DNA of 64,000 bases. Source: Polytrichum commune. Lineage: Eukaryota; Streptophyta; Polytrichopsida; Polytrichales; Polytrichaceae. The notes beneath the pieces were generated by a model. That model did not search any database and was not told the DNA's origin. It was given only the letters and a program-made list of their open reading frames with translations. Shown piece after piece: positions 41,697-64,000 of this stretch (position 1 is the first letter of the stretch; every line of letters starts with the position of its first letter). Both the position numbers and the translations under genes were made by a program. Location of the stretch: the NCBI GenBank assembly GCA_950295325.1, contig OX485803.1, forward strand, positions 12,524,001 through 12,588,000, read 5' to 3'.

Positions 41697-44600
41697 ATGT
41701 CATCAGTTTGGAGAAACGCAGGGGCTCCTGGGGCTCTTGATTTGTCAGGGATAAGATCAGCTCAAGTAGACATGATTCCAGATGACGATTCTTGTGATAT
41801 ATGTATGGGCGAGGATGGTGCATGTGACGTTTGGTTTAGTCCATGTGGACACAAAGCATGTGCCTCCTGTGTTCAGAAGATGCGTATTGCAAATGTTTAT
41901 AAGGTGGGACCTCAATTCCGTCTCAAGATTTGATCTAATTGTCTGATTGTTATGGTGATCAAGCTTTATATCTGCTGGTGAATGTATCAGCGGAAAGAAT
42001 AGAATAATCATGACTGCTTTACTGATGGGAAGTTGGGGGAACATGTGGCCATGTCTTATCTGAATTCTGTAGAGGTTGGCATGTGGAATTATTAATGATT
42101 TTAGAATATTGGGGAGCTCAATGTACTACATATCTAAAGTTGGGTCTTATATAAAACTATAAAAATGTGTTAAAACTCTGTCCTATGCATAAGGGTTAAC
42201 GATTCCTATTCAGTTTGTTTTTTTGTTCAACCCTGATTTTGAATCTTGTCAAAATTGTGTGAGTTTGTTAAACATTCTTTAGTTAGGTTTTCATGGGGGT
42301 CTTAATAACAAGCACCTGACTCACATGGATTTAGTAGAATTTGCATGAAATTCACTTCTGAGTGTTTGAATTGCAGGCTGACAAAGGTGTTCGGTGTCCA
42401 TTCTGTCGACAAGTAATAGAGACATACCTAGATGCTCCTCCACCACGCCGGCCAGTGAATTCTCCCTTTCCTCCAGAATCAGCTTCCTTTACACTTGTTA
42501 TGGGAGGTAATGTAGAAGCAGGTTCCAAAGCAGTACCAGAAATAAAGAAGCCATACGGTCGAGGGGGAATTGTGTCGATTGGTGGTGGAAATGATTACAT
42601 TCCTCCTAAAGGTGTTACTGGAAGTGATGGGGGAGGTTTGCGGTCAAATACACGTATGGATGATCTTTTGCCTGGTTATGTTGTACCACCTTTGAAAGAT
42701 ACAGATGATATAGTCAGTATGGCCATGGATCGGACGGTAAGCTGCAGTCCCTACTATATTTGTGTCTTCCATATTTCCCTTTCTGGGTTCAGTTTGACTT
42801 GTGAATATTCCTTGCAATTAGTTTCCTATTGCTGGTCTAAGTAGCTTTGATGATATGTTTGTAATAATAGGATGTGCAATGTATGTGCAGGGTGCCCGAC
42901 ATTTAGATTTTATGTTAAGAGATGCGTATACAAAGCGGCATAAAGTTGCGAAGCTTTGTAGAGAGATGCTTACACCTTTTGCTGCCAAATTAGCTGTCCA
43001 TGGTAAGCTGGGCATCTTTCCTGGGTACTTCCCTCTCTTCATGAAATTATAAGGATGTGGAGTTAGAGCGACAATGGCACCTGCTGATTTTCGTACTTAG
43101 ATTCAATCTCTGAAAGTCGTCTTGTGTGTTTGATACTAAAACTTCCTAGATATCAGGTAATGTAGCAGTACAACAGAGGAGTTGTATGAGTCAAATAACT
43201 CCTAATAATCTGGTTGCTTTGGCAGCATCTGGAAATTATGTGTTGCAGCGAATGTTAGAGTATGCTGCCACTCATAGGGGTGAAGGTGGCAATACTGAGA
43301 GCTTCTTCACAGCCATAGTCCGTTCTTTTGCTCAAGATAAAGGATTGGTGATGGCTGCCCAAGACCACCGGGGCACCTTTTCTGTTCAAAAAATGGTCAT
43401 TGTCCACTATCCTGGTTTTCATTTCATGAGATAAACCTGTATAATGCTGCTGCATATCAGTGAACATATAAGTTGAATGATTTGTGAGTTTGACCCCCAC
43501 TCCAGTAGAAAGTCTGAAGATATGTTTGTCCATTCCAGTTTGTTCAATTGAGACACTCGTGATACTTTGGAATGGGTATTAATTGCATGTCAAATTATCA
43601 TTATAAGATGTGCCTATATTTTGTCAATATCTGCCTTGTCATCTCTGTTGTCTATGGGGTTTTAAAAAATGCAGGATCTTTGTGAAGTTGTGCATTAAGT
43701 TGATCTATCCTGAAGCAAAGAGAATCTTTTATGCAGCTTGTATCTTTGAAAGGAGCTGAAGAAGCAACTTTGGTAGCTCAATGTATTCGAGGCTCTGTGG
43801 TGAGTGCTGCTGTCAGATTCCAACTTTATTGGGAGCAGGTTATGTGCATACTGTAGGAGGAAATCTGACGTAAATTGTTTTTAGCTCTATCCATATCAAA
43901 TCTTAAACTTTAGTTTGTTATGCTCATGAGGAGTTTATCTTGGCATTGTTAAGTTCTTTGCTGTAATAACCTGCTATCACCAAAGACTTTTCTCATGTTA
44001 GTGAGAAAATTGGAACATTTGTATGCAGGTACAACTAGCGCTAGATCAATTTGGAGTTTATGTATTGGAGCGGTTGGTGAGTCTCAGAAAACATTGACAT
44101 GATCTTTGTGCATGGTGTAGTTGTGTATTTGGAGTTTTCTATTTCTGTCCGCTTACAACTCTTCCTTCATTGTGACTTACTCCATTAGTGATTGCTTGAT
44201 TCTTAGGACATGGACTTTAATACACAGCTAATAATGTCAATTACGTAGCAGTTACGTATCAACTGCATGGGACTAGAACTAAATCCCATCAAGCTGTTGG
44301 TTTATGATCTTTATGAGTTTTCCAGAGAATCATTTGGATCATTGGTGGTTTGATCTACCATGGGTACCACACTTCCCCTGCCCAAGTCACTCTATATTTG
44401 ATTGGATGGTGACAGGTAGAGGCCCTTATCACTTCCCTGAATCCAGCACCGGGGAAGAAAGGTCGAGTTCCTTCAAAGGTTGCCACAAAAATATTGGCTC
44501 AGATTTGTGAAGAAATGCAAGCCGACTCAAAAGCCTTAGCCAGCATTGCCAAGCACCAGGTCAACATCGACAGTAATGTGTCTGTGTGTGGAGTTAAGCA

Positions 44601-47600
44601 GCTTGACTTTTGATTTTCTGTGCAACTCTGTGTATGATTTTATTATACATTCTTTGATCAACTTGTCCTTGAAGAATCTCAGGTTGTTAGTGATCATCCA
44701 TGTCTGCAGGCGATGTAAAGTCACTCTAAAAGCACAATTACATTATTATTTAACTGATTGGCTTCTGTATCAAGGTTAAAGGTACGGAGTAGGTTAGGTC
44801 ATTATGTCAGAGATATCTGGGTATACTTGCTCAGACAAGATCTGGCCTTGTGTGGCTGCAGGTGAGTGGCATTATGCTTGTGGAGTGCATACGATGGGCA
44901 TTACCACAATCAGAGGCAATGACAGCAGCAATTGGTATAGCTGATATGTCTGGCGATCTTGTTGGTTCCAAGCTTTCTCACCGCACACTGCAGGGTATTC
45001 TTAGGTTTGTTCTACTTTGATCCATCTCCATTGTGTCATCCTGGTCCATCTTATGTCCTCAAATTTGTGCAGAGATCAGAGCTCATAGTTCTATTTGGTG
45101 CCATCAGAAATCTATGGCAAGGACATTTTAGGAAATCTACTTGTAGGGGCATTTGTTACCTGTTGAGTTGTTTTCTTGTCATACCAGATTTACAAATGAT
45201 GTTTGTTAGTAAAATTAGTGTGTGTTGGGTCGAACAGTGGTAATGTTGATCTGCAAGTCATGAGCTGGTTATGTTATAAAACCTGAGATTCTTTTTGAGG
45301 TTTAATAATTTCTGTTTTCTATGTATCCAATTAGTCTGGAGGTAAAGGATGTGGCAGAGCGAGTCATTCAAGGTCTTCAAGGACACTATGTAGAATTGGC
45401 TGCTGATACAACTGGATGTGGTTTTAAGCTAGTCCGAGCTTGCCTTGCAACACCTTGCGGTATGTTATTTGGGCGCCTCTTTGAGTAGTCCATGGGATGT
45501 ATTTAGGATGAGCAAATAGAAGACTCGTCCTGGCTAATGAACACTTCCCCTGGAGAGCATCATTTTAGATTGACAGTAGTCTTGATTAAGTGAATATGAA
45601 TCCATGGTATGTACCAGCCATTGTTACCTGGAGACCAGTATGGTGGCCTTGTTCTGTCAGTTGCTTGTTTATCTCCATGGTAGATAGGATTACATTGTTG
45701 TAGAGGCCATTGCACTGGAAACATTGTGTACTTTTCATTTGCATTCAAAATTTCAATGTCATTTGGTGTGGTCAAAAGTGATGTTGGTGGTGCTGGGGGG
45801 TTTACAGTTGGAGAAAACATGAGGCTTCTCATAGTGGATGAACTTCTTGGTGCTGTAAAATATCCATCTGGACATCACTCCTGGTTTGACACAACAGCTG
45901 GCATTGACACATTTGCATTTGGGCTGTGCCTTCTTACCCGCAGGTCTGTTGCTTGTTGCAATGTGTCTTGTCTCTCTTTGAAGTGTGAAGTGGCGAGTTG
46001 TATTCTGCCACCTACAATTTTAGGATTATACTTTAACTGGCAATAGCTGAACCAAATGCTGATTCCATCTCTATCATTAGTGAGACTGTTTGCTGGTTAA
46101 TAAATGACCTCGTTTTGTTTCAGAGAGACCGCTCTTGACGAGGCCCTGTGTTTACTGATTGTGTTCTATCTATGCAGGGTACTGGATGAAAGAATGGATT
46201 CACTGATTATGCACCTTGAACGTGACAAGTATTCGGTATTTAGGGATCGAGTAGAAAATTTGCGTAAGCATTTTTTCAATGAAACCCCACAGCCCAGTAT
46301 TCCTCATCTTATTTCTTCTGCACCTTCTACACCGGCAGCCTCTCAAGTAACCAGAGCCCGTTCTCTTGACCACAACAGTGCCACTTCAGTTAACTCAAGG
46401 GTTGATTTAACTTCCAATTCTATGTCTGGATTTCTGCGTTTTCCACATGGACAGGTCATCTCAGATCCATGGTCTGAAGAGGGACCATCAGGAGGACTAT
46501 TTTCAACAGACCACATAGAAAAATCTTTAACTAGAGTAATCTCTCTTCCAAATTCTCGTCCTTCTACACCTAGTACACGACTAATGCCACTAGAATCTGC
46601 TTCATCTGGAGAATCACCTAGTCTTGTAGAACAAATGAGTACCCAGGCAGTGACATCCTCCAGTAGTGGTACTTTAGGGGCACGAATGAGTTCTAATCCT
46701 GTTGGCAGTTCCACATATACACCACCACATCTAAGGGACAAAAAAGTTCCTCTCGCTTTGGCTCAGAGTGGTTTAGGGCCATCTCAAGCTCAGCTCCCAG
46801 GTTCTGAAGCAAGATCTAGCTCCTACGCCCCTCCTCATATGCGTCAGCTAAGTCCATCTAGTTCAATGTCAGCAACTGGATTTTCAGACTTTAGGTGTGA
46901 AACAGAATCATCTGCTAATGGATCCTTCGGAAATGGGCATGTCACTGGAAATTCCCCTACTGGTGGTTCTAATGGGCAAAGTTTACACCCATATGGAAGT
47001 TTAGACTTCTTAGACTTCAATTCAGAGACTGTTGATCCTCCTGCATTAAAAAAGAATAGTGATGATGGAGGTGCAGCAGAAGCAGTAAAGCCATCAGGGA
47101 ATAACAGGCAGCCTGGTTTCAAAGCCTGTGCTGTTTGTAATCGAGATGCAGCAAATACGGTATGTGCAAGTTATTCTGTTGTAAGAACTTTGTGGGAAAG
47201 AAAACTCAGGGCAACTACCTGTCTGGTATCCAAATAGATGGATCTGTTTATTCTTCACAAAGACTTGTTGTTCCTGTTAGCAATAGATGCAATTTCATGC
47301 TTATGTTTACTTTCCTGGGGATTAGTGAACATTGGAACTAGAGAATGATTTAATATTCTGCCCTAATTTATTTATTGCACATGTGACACAGTTTGTTGAC
47401 ATTGTACTAAGATACGGTTGTGTGGATCGCTTGATGCAGGTGCTTTTGGCCTGCTCGCATATGTGTTGCTGCACTGCATGCTCTCGTGTTGTCACGGTAT
47501 GTCCAATCTGCCATAACAAGGTTTCAAGTGTAATAGATATTCGACCTGTGGGCATGCCACCCAGCCCCTCATCTTCTCTTCAACCACAGCCTAATAGCAC

Positions 47601-48249
47601 TTCAAATGCATGGGACATGTCTTCAGTGTCCAATGCAGCTTCAGCAATCACCACTCGGTTGATAGAAGCCTCTAGTGGGGGAAATTTAAGCAGGGAAATT
47701 CTGTCTCGGCATTCACCAGCAAGCTCTCAGTTTCAGAGCAGCGAATCACCTTTTGAGAGCAACACTGTAACTTCAGGAACTTCATTGTACTCCATCCGAC
47801 ATTTACCATCAGATCATCCTCCTCCTGGAATTCCAGCTTTGAAGCCAACTAGTTCGACTCGTAGCATGAGCTCCCAGAGCGCAAATAGCCTCACAGCTAC
47901 CCCTCAAGTCTCCTCCAGCATGGGTAGGCCACTTTATATCCCTTCAGATTTTTTCCCAACTGCCATGAGTGGAAACCAAGCACCTGGTTCTAATGTGTCG
48001 ATTACAACAGCTTCAAGTTTTGCCCAACATACCATTCAGCCGAGCCCAGTGAACAACTCGTTTACAAACATGCAATCAAGTGTTGTGAATCCTCCCACAC
48101 GACGCCCTCCTGCTCCTTATCGACCTCCAGGGCTTTACCGCCCCCCTGACCTTTATGCACGACCTGCACCCCCTGTGGTTTCTTCACAAGCACCATTCTC
48201 TAATTCTGACTTTACATCTATGGCTGCAGCTCAATGGAGGACATATTAG
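41697..48249 (+). CDS. RING-PUF-RING protein, putative RNA-binding E3 ubiquitin ligase
   Basis: Twelve coding exons give 1099 aa, all in frame: 41697-41903, 42377-42736, 42891-43002, 43226-43395, 43737-43799, 44029-44076, 44416-44559, 44862-45004, 45335-45459, 45808-45943, 46178-47159 and 47440-48249. An N-terminal C3HC4 RING uses C33, C36, C50, H52, C55, C58, C76 and C79. Residues about 190-500 hold degenerate Pumilio-type repeats (SGNYVLQRMLE, RGTFSVQKM, FGVYVLERL, TGCGFKLVRACL). A Ser/Pro-rich linker of about 300 residues contains two Y-x-P-P-H-[LM]-R motifs (Y683, Y719). A second RING of the IAP/MULAN spacing lies at about 820-854 (CAVC, CSHMCCCTAC, CPIC). The tail is Pro/Ser-rich. From known families, it should bind RNA and act as a ubiquitin ligase, as MEX-3 proteins do with KH domains; this is inference. 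I know of no characterised protein with this order of domains. Confidence 0.9.
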
Positions 48250-50467: not shown

Positions 50468-52530
50468 ATGCGAGGACTCACGTGCAATGCTTGTAATGTG
50501 GAGCTTGCGGACGAGGATGCACAGAAGGCGCACTACAAGACCGAATGGCACCGGTACAACCTGCGGCGCAAGGTGGCCGGTGTGCCCGGTATCACCGAGG
50601 CGTTTTTCAATTTAAGGCTTGAGGCTTTGGCGGAGGAGAAGAGGAAGAAAGAAGGTGAGAAGCTGTTGTATAAGTGTGCTCTGTGCAACAAGGAGTACAC
50701 CACTTTGAAGGCACATGCAAATCACCTCCAGTCCAAGCTCCATATCTCCAAAGCGGCCAACCCTGATGCTCCTGCTGATGCAGGTCATGATGCCTTCTTT
50801 TTCTGGATGTAGTGAGTAGGTTATCTGTGATTAGGGTTTTCCAATTTTGTCTGTGTTTTTGGTTTTCGTATAAGGTGGATGTGTCTTAAATGGTTACTTT
50901 CTCCTGTTCCCTATGGAATAAAACTCCGATTCTTGAACTCTAATTTTGGCTGATCCACTAATGTGGACGGAGAAGCCAGGTTCAATCGGAGGGAAATTTG
51001 GAGCCCGCCCTGAATTGACTGAATTGATACGAATTTCCAAAGGTGATGGTGAGGGAGTCATAACTCGGTCACAGAGGGCCCCCCAATATTGTTGACTATT
51101 CGAGTTAACCTGTATGAATTAACTGTCGTGATTTGGACTTTAAATCCTCAAGTGGTGCCTTGTTCGAGTGTAACTAGAAAGTCTTGTGAGGGTTTCTTTG
51201 AGTTTTATGTGCCCACATGTTTCATCTTTATATAACTAAGAACCTTCATTTTTTGACACCTATATGCACATGCACCACTTTGCTCCTCTCACCACTTAAA
51301 ATCAAACTCATGAAAAGAACACCAAAATTTTTTAGGTCGCCGACACCAGTGTTGGAAGTGGCAAATGTGGGAGATTCCTCCAAATTTGTTCAGTTGCTCC
51401 CCACTTTTTGGTGACTTTATGGTTGACTCTATTGAAGTGAACACTTAGTCCAATCTCTTTCAAGCACATGTCTTCTTAGTGTTCATTCTTAGATCCACAC
51501 CTAATTACACACCACTCAAATATAGGTTTCCATCTTCGACAAGTAATGGCCACCTTACTGGAATATTAATATTTTGCTTGGCAATGTGTTGCTGTTTTTC
51601 TTGGCAGGTGTTGCAGGAACTCGACCTGCGCCAATGAAGCCATCGGCAGTGAGTCAGGAGGAAAGCAAGTCACAGAACTCTAAGGCAGTCCTGGAGGATG
51701 AAGAAGATGATAGCGATGATGAATGGGAAGAAGTGGATGGAGATGACACTGCTGCTGATGATGATGAGGATACAATTGCTGAGATGGACGAAGCTGGTCC
51801 TAGTGATGATGGCGTGTTGTCCGGAGATTGGGATGCAAGCGACTGTCTCTTCTGCGGCAAGAATCAATCTGATTTTGAGAGATGCATAGAGCATATGCAC
51901 AAAGTTCATGGGTTCTTTATTCCTGATGTAGAGTATTTGAAGGACCCAATTGGACTATTGAGGTACTTAGGACTGAAGATCACGAAAGGTCATATGTGTC
52001 TTTATTGTGATGAACAAGGAAAACAATTCCATAGTGTGGAGGCCGTTCGCAAGCACATGGATAACAAGAGCCACTGTAAGTTGCGGTATGGTGATGGTGA
52101 AGGGGCAGAAGACGAGAACATTGATGATTATTACGATTTTAGTAGCAGTTACAAAACCTCTGAGAATACTGATATGGTATTGCACAATGGTGGGAGTCCT
52201 ACAGTATCCTTAAGTGCTGGAGGTCATGAACTAGTCATTAAGGGGTCAGGTGGCGATGAGAACAGTGTGAAGAGGATTGGGTCGAGGGATATGGCTCGTT
52301 ACTTCCGCCAGAAACCTGCTCCTACAGAGAATCGTGATGGTTTTGCTGCTAATGCACTGATTGCAAAGTATAGGAGCATGGGGTTGGCAACTCAAGACCA
52401 GAAGTGGAGGCTGCGTAACAAGCCAGAGGAGCAGCAGAGGAAGGCTTCACAAAGAGCTGAGTACATTCGATCAAAGATCGCTCTGAAGAATAACGTTATT
52501 CGGAACTTACCCAGGAATTGTGAGTTTTAG
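50468..52530 (+). CDS. REIL: REI1-like cytoplasmic 60S biogenesis factor (zinc finger)
   Basis: REI1 (ZNF622 in animals, REIL in plants) acts in late cytoplasmic maturation of the 60S ribosomal subunit. Two exons, 50468-50783 and 51608-52530, join in phase 1 to give 412 residues, close to yeast and plant family members. Two U1-type zinc fingers with C-x2-C-x12-H-x5-H spacing lie at C6/C9/H22/H28 and C70/C73/H86/H92. After an acidic Asp/Glu stretch, two more fingers start at C185/C188 and C236/C239. The motif VEYLKDPIGLLRYLGLK between them is typical of the family. The start was chosen because MRGLTCNAC is the conserved N-terminus. The intron holds a copy of dispersed repeat family A. Confidence 0.94.
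51060..51560. repeat. Dispersed repeat family A, copy 5, interrupted, in the REI1 intron
   Basis: Left part 51060-51110 ('gggccccccaatattgttga') and right part about 51440-51560 ('agtccaatctctttcaagc', 'cattcttagatccacacc', 'ccactcaaatatagg') match the other family A copies. About 330 bp of other sequence lies between them. That insert includes a block (51217-51310, 'aaaatcaaactcatgaaaag') similar to 59085-59220 and 61210-61345. Confidence 0.55.
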
Positions 52531-53139: not shown

Positions 53140-54625
53140 TTTTCTTGGAAGCCTTGCAAATCAGGTGACTATCTGACTCATGTGGATGCTTGTGACCGAG
53201 TGACATACATGAGACTCTTCACGATGCACTTGCATACAGAGAGGCCAGGGAGAACAACCAGAGCAACTCGTGGGGGCATCATGTCTTCGTCAACCAAATC
53301 CTCGTTAATCACGTCCACCATATACTCGCTGTTGAAATCCGAGCCTCGTCCAACTCTGATAACTCTTGCATTTGGCTTGAAGGAGAAAGCAAGTCTGCAA
53401 CGTCCACACAATTCTAGCCACCTGAAAGAAAGTGGTGAGTAGCTTAAGGTCGGATTCATTGGCCTTCAGATCCTTCCTGCCCACTTGCTGGCTGTATTGG
53501 AGTATGCTCTCTTCTAGGTCTAGCTCCTTGTGGAAAACTCCTAGACATTTTTGACAGCAAAAGGCACTGAAAGCTTCTGTGTACTTGGATGGCAACACAT
53601 TTGAGACTGAAAAATCAGCAGCGTTTGAGAATACCTCAATACTCTTTAAAAAATGTGGTGAGGTGTTGATGCGGAAGTGAAAGATTGGCGAGCTGAGCAT
53701 CGTCCCCGGAGTCTTCACGTTCGAAGTCGGAGATGAAGATGGCAGAGAGATGTGCTTGGTGAGCGTACTTCACATGGCTACGCCAGAAGAATTAAATCTC
53801 TGCAAACAGCTTGTCGGCGCTCGTATTTGCGTGGACATTCGTCCTGAGGAATGCCTTTGTGAAATTCCGAGGAGCCATATGCAACCCTCGCACAACTGTT
53901 TCGAGGAGCACAGGGGTAGCAGAAGAATCCACGCATAAGCCGTTCTTGTGCTATCCTTCGTCGGCCCGCTCCCTTTCAAGGTATTGAATCTGCAACTGAA
54001 GCTTTCTTTCGTTGGCTTTTAGCGTCAGACGGTTGTCTTGGAGCCTTTGTACTTTGTACAACGATGCACCTTGTTTATAATGCATTTGTCGCTGATGATC
54101 AAGTTCAGAAATCCGACTGCACAAGTGCGAAATGTGACACTGCTTGGCTCACGTTCTCCGAAAGTGCATTGTTGTGAGTCAAGAGATCATTGATCTCTTC
54201 GACCGCAGGTTCCATCTCCTTCTCCTTCTGAGTGAAGAGCTTTTTGAAGTTTTCTTTCGCAGCTGGCATCTCCGTGGATGTAATTCTCGCAATTTTAACA
54301 CATCCGTACTCCTTGAGTCTTCATCATCCTTGTGCTTGTGTCCTCCATTGTCAAAACGCCTAGTAAAAGCTCCGAACAAGGAATCCACGTTGCAAAGGAG
54401 AGGCCGCAAACCCCTTCTGGGAATCCAGTCGACTGGAATCTGTGGTGCTCTGCACCGCCGGTGAATTCTCAAGGGCATCATACTTCAAGGGCGGTTCAAC
54501 CTCGCCAATTCTCCTTTTCTCAGGTCTCACAGGTGACACACACGGTTTTTAGTACTCATCTCTTCGGTGCGAGACGTGAACATCTCCTTCAAGCATATTG
54601 CACAGTGCTCAAACTAATGTGCAGT
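53140..54625 (-). pseudogene. Decayed GIL1-like (DUF641) copy
   Basis: It is a direct paralogue of the intact gene at 62486-63865, similar along its whole length and into its upstream region (to about 54625). Compared with that copy, it lacks about 20 bp within the acidic stretch near 53300. A 2-nt deletion near 53397 breaks the frame just before the conserved VWMLHRLAFSF-type segment. An extra base near 53638 and further shifts in the N-terminal half also break it. No long open frame survives. A GA microsatellite replaces the proximal upstream sequence. Confidence 0.85.
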
Positions 54626-62485: not shown

Positions 62486-63865
62486 CTATGTGACTCGTGT
62501 CTTGGATACTTGTGGCTGGGTGACATATACGAGACTCTTCACGATGCACTTGCATACAGAGAAGCCAGGGAGAACAACCAGAGCAACTCGTCGAGGCATC
62601 GTATCTTCGTTAAGCGAGTCATCTTCCTCGCTCGTCGAATCCTCAACAACGCCTGCCATATAATCTCCGTTGAACGCCGCACCTCTTCCAACTCTGATAA
62701 CTCTTGCATTCGGCTCGAAGGAGAAAGCAAGTCTGTGCAACATCCACACTATTCTAGCCAACTGAAAGAAAGTGGTGAGTAGCTGAAGGTCGGATCCATT
62801 GGCCTTCTGATCCTTCCCGTCCATTTGCTGGCCGCATTGGAGCATGCTCTTGTCTAGGTCTAGCTCCTTGTGGAAAATTCCTAGATACTTTCGACAGCAA
62901 AAGGCACTGAAAGCTTCTGTGTACTTGGCTGGCAACACGTTTGAGACTGGAAAATCAGCAGCGTTTGAGAATGCCTCATACTCTTCAAAAAATGAGGTGG
63001 GGTGTTGATGCGGAAGTGAAAGATTGGCGAGTTGAGCATCGTCCCCGAAGTCTTCACGTTCGAAGTCGGAGAAGAAGATGGCAGAGAGATGTGCTTGGTG
63101 AGCGTACTTCACATGGCTACGCCTGGAGAATGGAATCTCTGCGAACAGCTTGTCGGCGCTTTTATTTCCGTGCACATTCGTCCTGATGTATTCCTTTGTG
63201 AAATTCCGAGAAGCCATATCCAGCCCTCGCACAACTGTTTCGAGAAGCACAGGGGTAGCAGAAGAATCCACATATGAGCCGTTTTTGTGCTTTCCTTCGT
63301 TGGCCCGCTCCCTTTCAAGAGATTGAATTTGCAAGTGAAGCTTCCCTTCGTTGGCTTCTAGCCTCAAAAGGTTCTCTTGGAGCCTTTGCACTTCGTGCTG
63401 CATCGATTCTCTTTCCTGATAACATCTGCGCACCTCCTGTTCACGTTGAGAAATTCGATACTGCAACTGCGAATTGCAACAATCTGATTGGCTCACGCTC
63501 TCCAAGAGCTCATCCTTCTCAGTCCGGAGATCATTTATCACTTTGGCTGCAGCTTCCATCTCCTTCTCCTTCTGAGAGAGGAGCTTTCTAATATATTCTT
63601 CCGCAGCTGGCATCTCCATGGGATGTGATTCTCGAAACTCCAATACATCCGTACTGCTTGAGTCTTCGCCATCCGTACGATTGTGTCCTCCACCGCCGAA
63701 GAGCTTCCTAATACATCGGAAAGTGGTCCTCAAACCCAGGATAGGAGAGGCCCCAACCCCTTCCTTAGAATCTATCCGTCCGGAACCTCTGGTGCTCTGC
63801 ATCGGTGATGAAATTGTAACGGCACCAAACCTCAAGGAAAGCTCTTCCTCTCCAGAATTATCCAT
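62486..63865 (-). CDS. GIL1-like protein (DUF641 family), intronless
   Basis: The family includes Arabidopsis GIL1 (gravitropic in the light 1), a plant-specific protein in light control of gravitropism. The single open frame encodes 459 residues, close to GIL1 length. Residues about 90-200 form a coiled coil (KEKEMEAAAKVINDLRTEKDEL and onward). The C-terminal half shows family features: an AHQAHLSAIFF segment, FCCRKYLGIFHKELD, ARIVWMLHRLAFSFEPNA, and a final VALVVLPGFSVCKCIVKSLVYV strand. An acidic insert (STSEEDDSLNED) precedes that strand. The N-terminus is Ser/Gly-rich. A decayed paralogue lies 9.3 kb away in the same orientation. Assignment rests on C-terminal pattern similarity; the function in this species is inferred. 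Confidence 0.82.
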   Translation of the reverse strand: MDNSGEEELSLRFGAVTISSPMQSTRGSGRIDSKEGVGASPILGLRTTFRCIRKLFGGGGHNRTDGEDSSSTDVLEFRESHPMEMPAAEEYIRKLLSQKEKEMEAAAKVINDLRTEKDELLESVSQSDCCNSQLQYRISQREQEVRRCYQERESMQHEVQRLQENLLRLEANEGKLHLQIQSLERERANEGKHKNGSYVDSSATPVLLETVVRGLDMASRNFTKEYIRTNVHGNKSADKLFAEIPFSRRSHVKYAHQAHLSAIFFSDFEREDFGDDAQLANLSLPHQHPTSFFEEYEAFSNAADFPVSNVLPAKYTEAFSAFCCRKYLGIFHKELDLDKSMLQCGQQMDGKDQKANGSDLQLLTTFFQLARIVWMLHRLAFSFEPNARVIRVGRGAAFNGDYMAGVVEDSTSEEDDSLNEDTMPRRVALVVLPGFSVCKCIVKSLVYVTQPQVSKTRVT

Positions 63866-64000
63866 CCTCCTGATTTCGCAGGCCTTATCTATAACAACAC
63901 ACGATTCCTAGCACCCTCCTCTTCATTGCGAGACGGCAAAATCTCCTCACAGTTTGTCGCACACGGTGGTGCGACTCTCTCGCTGCTGTGCTCACACTAA
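63866..64000. promoter_or_regulatory. Upstream region of the GIL1-like gene, cut by window end
   Basis: The 135 bp before the start codon are partly conserved with 54500-54625 upstream of the decayed copy (shared 'gcgagacg' and 'catctcct'-like blocks), so the duplication included promoter sequence. No TATA box is identifiable within the window. Confidence 0.4.

Follow-up and report, generated by a model that had tools for sequence, protein, structure and literature searches.

A Polytrichum commune gene with a divergent PUF-like region between two RING fingers, a candidate RNA-binding ubiquitin ligase

INTRODUCTION

RNA-binding ubiquitin ligases link the control of messages with the control of proteins, and the well-known ones use KH, ROQ or CCCH domains. 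A gene of Polytrichum commune that places a PUF-like region between two RING fingers raises the question whether a PUF that has degenerated remains able to read RNA. If it does so, and if the RINGs are active, the best-understood RNA-reading scaffold would stand in one chain with ubiquitin transfer, in a plant. The gene lies in a window of 64,000 nt (assembly GCA_950295325.1, contig OX485803.1, positions 12,524,001 to 12,588,000, forward strand), and positions below are those of the window unless a contig is named. A first-pass annotation, made from the letters of the window, had described a single in-frame gene of 12 exons with a complete C3HC4 set at each end and a run of degenerate PUF repeats between them, and had found no characterised protein to match it.

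RESULTS AND DISCUSSION

Gene structure

The gene occupies 41697-48249 of the plus strand in 12 exons, with a spliced coding length of 1122 amino acids plus stop. An in-frame stop lies upstream of its first ATG.

41697..48249, plus strand: coding region, 1122 aa; exons 1-6 at 41697-41903, 42377-42736, 42891-43002, 43157-43395, 43737-43799 and 44029-44076
Plus strand: coding region, exons 7-12, at 44416-44559, 44862-45004, 45335-45459, 45808-45943, 46178-47159 and 47440-48249

The exons splice in frame as first annotated: each of the 11 introns has GT-AG borders, and phase is kept throughout. Exon 4 has a possible second acceptor, read from the sequence, 12 nt downstream with phase unchanged, so the four residues at its start are uncertain. 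It is highly improbable that two neighbouring genes, or wrongly joined exons, have been taken for one. In addition to the intron borders and phase, exon 11 by itself runs from the solenoid's terminal helical stretch through the linker and into the opening part of RING 2; intron 2, which separates RING 1 from the solenoid, is just 154 bp; and each RING is complete only across its own intron.

RING fingers

41793..42406, plus strand: RING 1 (residues 33-79), a C3HC4 finger interrupted by intron 1; full ligand set, Pfam matches under cut-off
47127..47511, plus strand: RING 2 (residues 843-877), a C3HC4 finger of the MULAN/IAP/MGRN1 kind interrupted by intron 11; Pfam and PDB matches

Both fingers hold eight zinc ligands in the cross-brace order of C3HC4 proteins: C33, C36, C50, H52, C55, C58, C76 and C79 in RING 1 (spacing C-x2-C-x13-C-x-H-x2-C-x2-C-x17-C-x2-C), and C843, C846, C858, H860, C864, C867, C874 and C877 in RING 2. 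The protein has two matches to the C3HC4 pattern and no more, at residues 33 and 843; none of 20000 shuffles has one. The set that had been placed at C33-C79 is complete and N-terminal. The second set is likewise complete, as had been claimed, but its true position is about 23 residues higher than the approximate 820-854 originally given, and it is not terminal, since 245 residues follow it.

RING 2 is a clear zf-C3HC4_3 (Pfam E 3e-15, 56.2 bits, cut-off 27), and its nearest matches in the PDB are CGRRF1 (2ea5, E 2.9e-6), MGRN1 (9qru, E 1.2e-5), MULAN (6k2k, E 0.0021) and XIAP. The best Pfam match of RING 1 is RING_XB3-XBAT31 (E 7.9e-6, 26.3 bits against a cut-off of 50), and zf-RING_2 matches at E 0.0021, also under its cut-off. 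Since all of its scores are under the curated cut-offs (26.3/50, 18.8/27.3, 18.4/27.9 and 16.9/21 bits), the naming of RING 1 rests on its complete ligand set. By the linchpin rule, Arg rather than His after the last RING Cys bears on ligase activity; this residue is Arg in RING 1 and His in RING 2.

The PUF-like region

42891..46190, plus strand: PUF-like alpha-solenoid region, from exon 3 into the start of exon 11 (residues about 190-530); Pfam, PDB and own-genome repeat profile
43231..43248, plus strand: GNYVLQ, residues 252-257, the repeat retaining the N-Y-Q triad; own-genome repeat profile and sequence inspection

The degenerate PUF run of the first-pass annotation was borne out by profile searches. 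Pfam PUF (PF00806) matched the whole protein at E 2.1e-6 with 27.8 bits, and residues 190-561 with 32.5 bits, both over the cut-off of 26.3; among the RINGs, the same kind of search placed RING 2 over its cut-off and RING 1 under every one. PUF_NOP9 reached 28.2 bits on residues 190-561 (cut-off 27) and 23.9 bits, under the cut-off, on the whole protein; its match covers residues 236-401 and only profile positions 180-334 of 514. When residues 190-561 were compared by phmmer with all PDB chains at E up to 10, the 15 distinct sequences found were all PUF proteins, led by PUF4 (E 3.4e-6) and PUM1/2; every one was of the PUM/PUF3/4/5/7 kind, and none was NOP9 or Puf-A. A repeat profile of 16 rows, built from the PUF repeats of the P. 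commune genes on contigs C2 and C4 described below, scored residues 190-560 at 23.2 bits, whereas none of 1000 shuffles scored above 6.6. Judged by these matches, the middle region of the protein (about 190-530) is a divergent PUF homologue. An NCBIfam search returned one match only (E 0.081), which we take as chance, and searches with residues 190-561 gave 22 pattern matches in a prokaryotic set (genome_contigs) and 2 in viral_contigs, none of them confirmed; these sets, of prokaryotes and viruses, have no bearing on plants.

Single repeats score weakly with the own-genome profile: 5.5, 9.3 and -2.3 bits in the whole protein, and 7.2, 11.1 and -0.6 bits on residues 190-560. The profile picks out repeats at G252 and G336 and, weakly, at G466; alignment to PUF4 shows another at G299. 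Further positions near 394, 431 and 505 were placed by eye from the spacing, and we estimate roughly seven repeats in all. The triads at the recognisable repeats are N253-Y254-Q257, T300-F301-Q304, V337-Y338-E341 and C467-G468-L471. NYxxQ is the uracil-reading triad of the classical PUF code, and only the first of the four repeats keeps a classical triad; the three positions placed by eye have none. The N-Y-Q, T-F-Q and V-Y-E triads noted earlier thus lie at residues 253-341 as described. The argument that had been drawn from the base code is weak, because only one repeat in four has a classical triad and the region, 340 residues long, carries a net charge of just +4. As far as is known, PUFs whose binding is not sequence-specific are strongly basic.

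A predicted fold was obtained for the 79 residues of exon 4, about one and a half repeats rather than the whole solenoid. It has three helices (15-23, 27-38 and 46-60) at low confidence, with a mean pLDDT of 66. With this low-confidence model, none of 171 Foldseek matches reached E 0.001 or better, and none of 329 chains reached Z 5 in structure alignment (34 at Z of at least 2, best 3.4); PUF chains were absent among the matches listed (50 from Foldseek and 31 aligned chains).

Linker motifs and C-terminal tail

46716..46736, plus strand: YTPPHLR motif, residues 706-712, in the low-complexity linker; like DDX3X 38-YIPPHLR-44
46824..46844, plus strand: YAPPHMR motif, residues 742-748, in the linker; sequence inspection
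47515..48246, plus strand: low-complexity Ser/Pro-rich tail, residues 879-1122; 58% S/T/P/G/N/Q over residues 891-1122

The linker (residues 531-837, 50% S/T/P/G/N/Q) holds a pair of DDX3X-like YxPPH(L/M)R motifs, a new observation beyond the first-pass annotation. Each is preceded by a short Ser-rich stretch. When residues 561-837 were shuffled 200000 times, at least one such motif arose in 2 shuffles and two or more in none, a figure that overstates the weight of the pair because the pattern was picked after being seen. The motifs, which lie in a low-complexity stretch, recall the YIPPHLR of DDX3X/Ded1; unlike those proteins, ours has no helicase family among its 9 Pfam matches. According to a review, DDX3X binds eIF4E through 38-YIPPHLR-44, although the same review reports conflicting results and the contact is disputed (PMC9642913). 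The linker motifs do not fit the stricter consensus YxxxxL(F/I/L/M), which has no match in the protein. A search of the protein for PAM2-like, GW/WG, PPxY and F(D/E)F short motifs found none.

Related loci in the genome

The P. commune assembly of 408 Mb in 64 contigs was searched with the protein. There were 13 matches: 11 inside the gene itself, one to a RING only (C1:62.78 Mb, E 2.5e-5) and one to a fragment of exon 9. The fragment (C1:70767082-70767270; L001:5103-5282, minus strand) is 91.7% identical over 180 columns to window positions 45284-45457, which take in all of exon 9 but its last two bases and, ahead of it, 51 nt of intron. Its reading frame shifts within exon 9, and we read it as a probable recent partial duplicate, isolated and broken, rather than a paralogue. 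By this search the gene appears to be single-copy.

A PF00806 search of the genome gave 14 matches, none of them in the window. The search misses the present gene because none of its exons scores high enough by itself, and other equally divergent PUF genes would escape it for the same reason. Elsewhere the genome has PUF genes on C2 and C4, and C1:6.19 Mb carries a NOP9-like locus that matches profile positions 1-64. Since PUF genes and a NOP9-like locus are thus present separately, the gene with two RINGs replaces neither.

The C4 gene (C4:14785001-14791000, L003) is of Pumilio type, and its repeats are preceded by long tracts rich in Gln. On C2, a PUF gene (L002:3057-5357, minus strand) has a CCCH zinc finger in its first large exon (PF00642, E 6.7e-7, residues 525-548), which precedes strong PUF repeats (E 1.1e-23). 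We know of no CCCH-PUF fusion in plants. Further PUF matches at C2:64.648-64.650 Mb, about 54 kb from this gene, look like a tandem copy.

Comparison with known proteins

The nearest precedents in layout are ligases of other domain composition. MEX-3 proteins have KH domains with a C-terminal RING, and MEX-3C, like the present protein, joins an RNA-binding-type domain and a C3HC4 RING in one chain; here there are two RINGs, and a PUF-like solenoid stands in place of KH. In Roquin a RING at the N terminus precedes an RNA-binding region (ROQ, CCCH), an order that the present protein shares, although its second RING lies in the C-terminal quarter. The protein has 9 Pfam matches when E values up to 10 are admitted; no KH, ROQ or CCCH family is among them, and the protein therefore belongs to neither the MEX-3 nor the Roquin family. 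Its domain types fit the RNA-binding ubiquitin ligases (RBULs), a group defined by direct binding of RNA and ligase activity in the same chain.

With the classical PUFs (Pumilio, PUF4 and plant APUM) the protein has in common repeat homology above a curated cut-off; it differs in its degenerate triads and in the RING on either side, and it is not a classical PUF with a PUM-HD of eight readable repeats. It resembles NOP9 in having divergent PUF repeats and a partial PUF_NOP9 match. A member of that family would have a full-length match with 11 repeats, and the limited profile span and the separate NOP9-like locus indicate that this gene is not NOP9. RING 2 is of the same zf-C3HC4_3 kind as the RINGs of MGRN1, CGRRF1, MULAN and IAP proteins, none of which, to our knowledge, has PUF repeats.

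The literature matches listed, from a search covering few subscription journals, name no PUF-RING protein in their titles or abstract openings, in agreement with the earlier failure to find a characterised match. In the main text of the survey of Arabidopsis, rice, moss and alga PUFs by Tam et al. 2010 (PMC2848763) the terms 'RING' and 'zinc finger' are absent, as is 'RING' from that of a plant Pumilio review (PMC8699478) and 'PUF' or 'Pumilio' from that of a plant RING survey (PMC6118397). The predicted proteomes of other plants may well contain proteins of this architecture that have not been named.

Possible function

We tentatively propose, with confidence a little short of even, that the gene product is an undescribed ubiquitin ligase of the RING type that binds RNA and acts on mRNPs. 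The first-pass annotation had likewise read it as a PUF-based RNA-binding ubiquitin ligase, a reading that the analysis supports in part. The protein would be cytoplasmic, and its PUF-derived solenoid would dock it on mRNA or an mRNP. The two linker motifs might then touch the cap-binding or translation machinery, as reported for DDX3X, while an E2 recruited by one or both RINGs would transfer ubiquitin to a component protein of the bound mRNP. Such ubiquitination could alter the translation or decay of the message, by analogy with the RNA-binding ubiquitin ligase MEX-3C, whose ubiquitination of CNOT7 is required if its target mRNA is to decay (PMC4617606).

Ligase activity is suggested by the two full C3HC4 sets, beyond what shuffling produces, and by the resemblance to ligase RINGs found in Pfam and the PDB; the sub-threshold scores of RING 1 and the His after the last Cys of RING 2 count against it. 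A link to RNA is suggested by PUF homology far above shuffled sequences, by the two curated cut-offs passed on residues 190-561, by PDB matches that are PUF proteins throughout and by the one repeat with a uracil triad. Two DDX3X-type motifs in one linker, together with the MEX-3C precedent, point towards mRNPs. Against RNA binding stand the missing triads of most repeats and the nearly neutral charge, and against an eIF4E contact the unmatched stricter consensus and the dispute over DDX3X itself.

The same weak triads make a serious rival of a solenoid that binds protein: without touching RNA, it could be the recruiting arm of an ordinary RING ubiquitin ligase. This is a substantial possibility, though we doubt it. 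The triads T-F-Q, V-Y-E and C-G-L, the near neutrality of the solenoid and the low scores of single repeats all suit it, whereas the N-Y-Q repeat and the mRNP-type linker motifs are better suited to an RNA setting. Moreover, weak triads do not exclude RNA binding, since non-classical PUFs such as Puf-A/Puf6 and NOP9 bind RNA by other means (PMC5062617). Those proteins suggest another reading, in which a PUF of the NOP9 or Puf-A/Puf6 kind, with RINGs added, binds structured or ribosomal RNA and serves ribosome quality control or biogenesis. The PUF_NOP9 score just over its cut-off on residues 190-561 argues for this, but we consider it quite unlikely in view of the short profile span, the NOP9-like match elsewhere and the absence of NOP9 and Puf-A from the PDB matches.

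The proposal of an mRNP-directed ligase can be carried further, to an undescribed land-plant class of RNA-guided ligases in which the solenoid picks an mRNA, the paired motifs bring the protein to the cap-binding complex and the two different RINGs ubiquitinate initiation or decay factors there. This extension is unlikely as a whole. Under it, RING 1 would be XBAT31-like, and RING 2, being MULAN/IAP-like, may dimerise as IAP RINGs do.

Neighbouring open frames

Other open frames of the window were also noted. The frame at 51547-52530 (plus strand) encodes two copies of a C2H2 zinc finger (PF12756, E 2.3e-31) and is presumably a REI1/ZNF622-like ribosome-biogenesis factor. That at 62486-63907 (minus strand) has the C-terminal domain of GIL1/IRKI (PF24994, E 2.5e-8), a plant-specific family. 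A stretch closely similar by eye, AFSAFCCxKxLG(V/I)FHKELDL, is found in this frame and in the one at 53305-53769 (minus strand), which may be a partial duplicate of the GIL1/IRKI-type gene.
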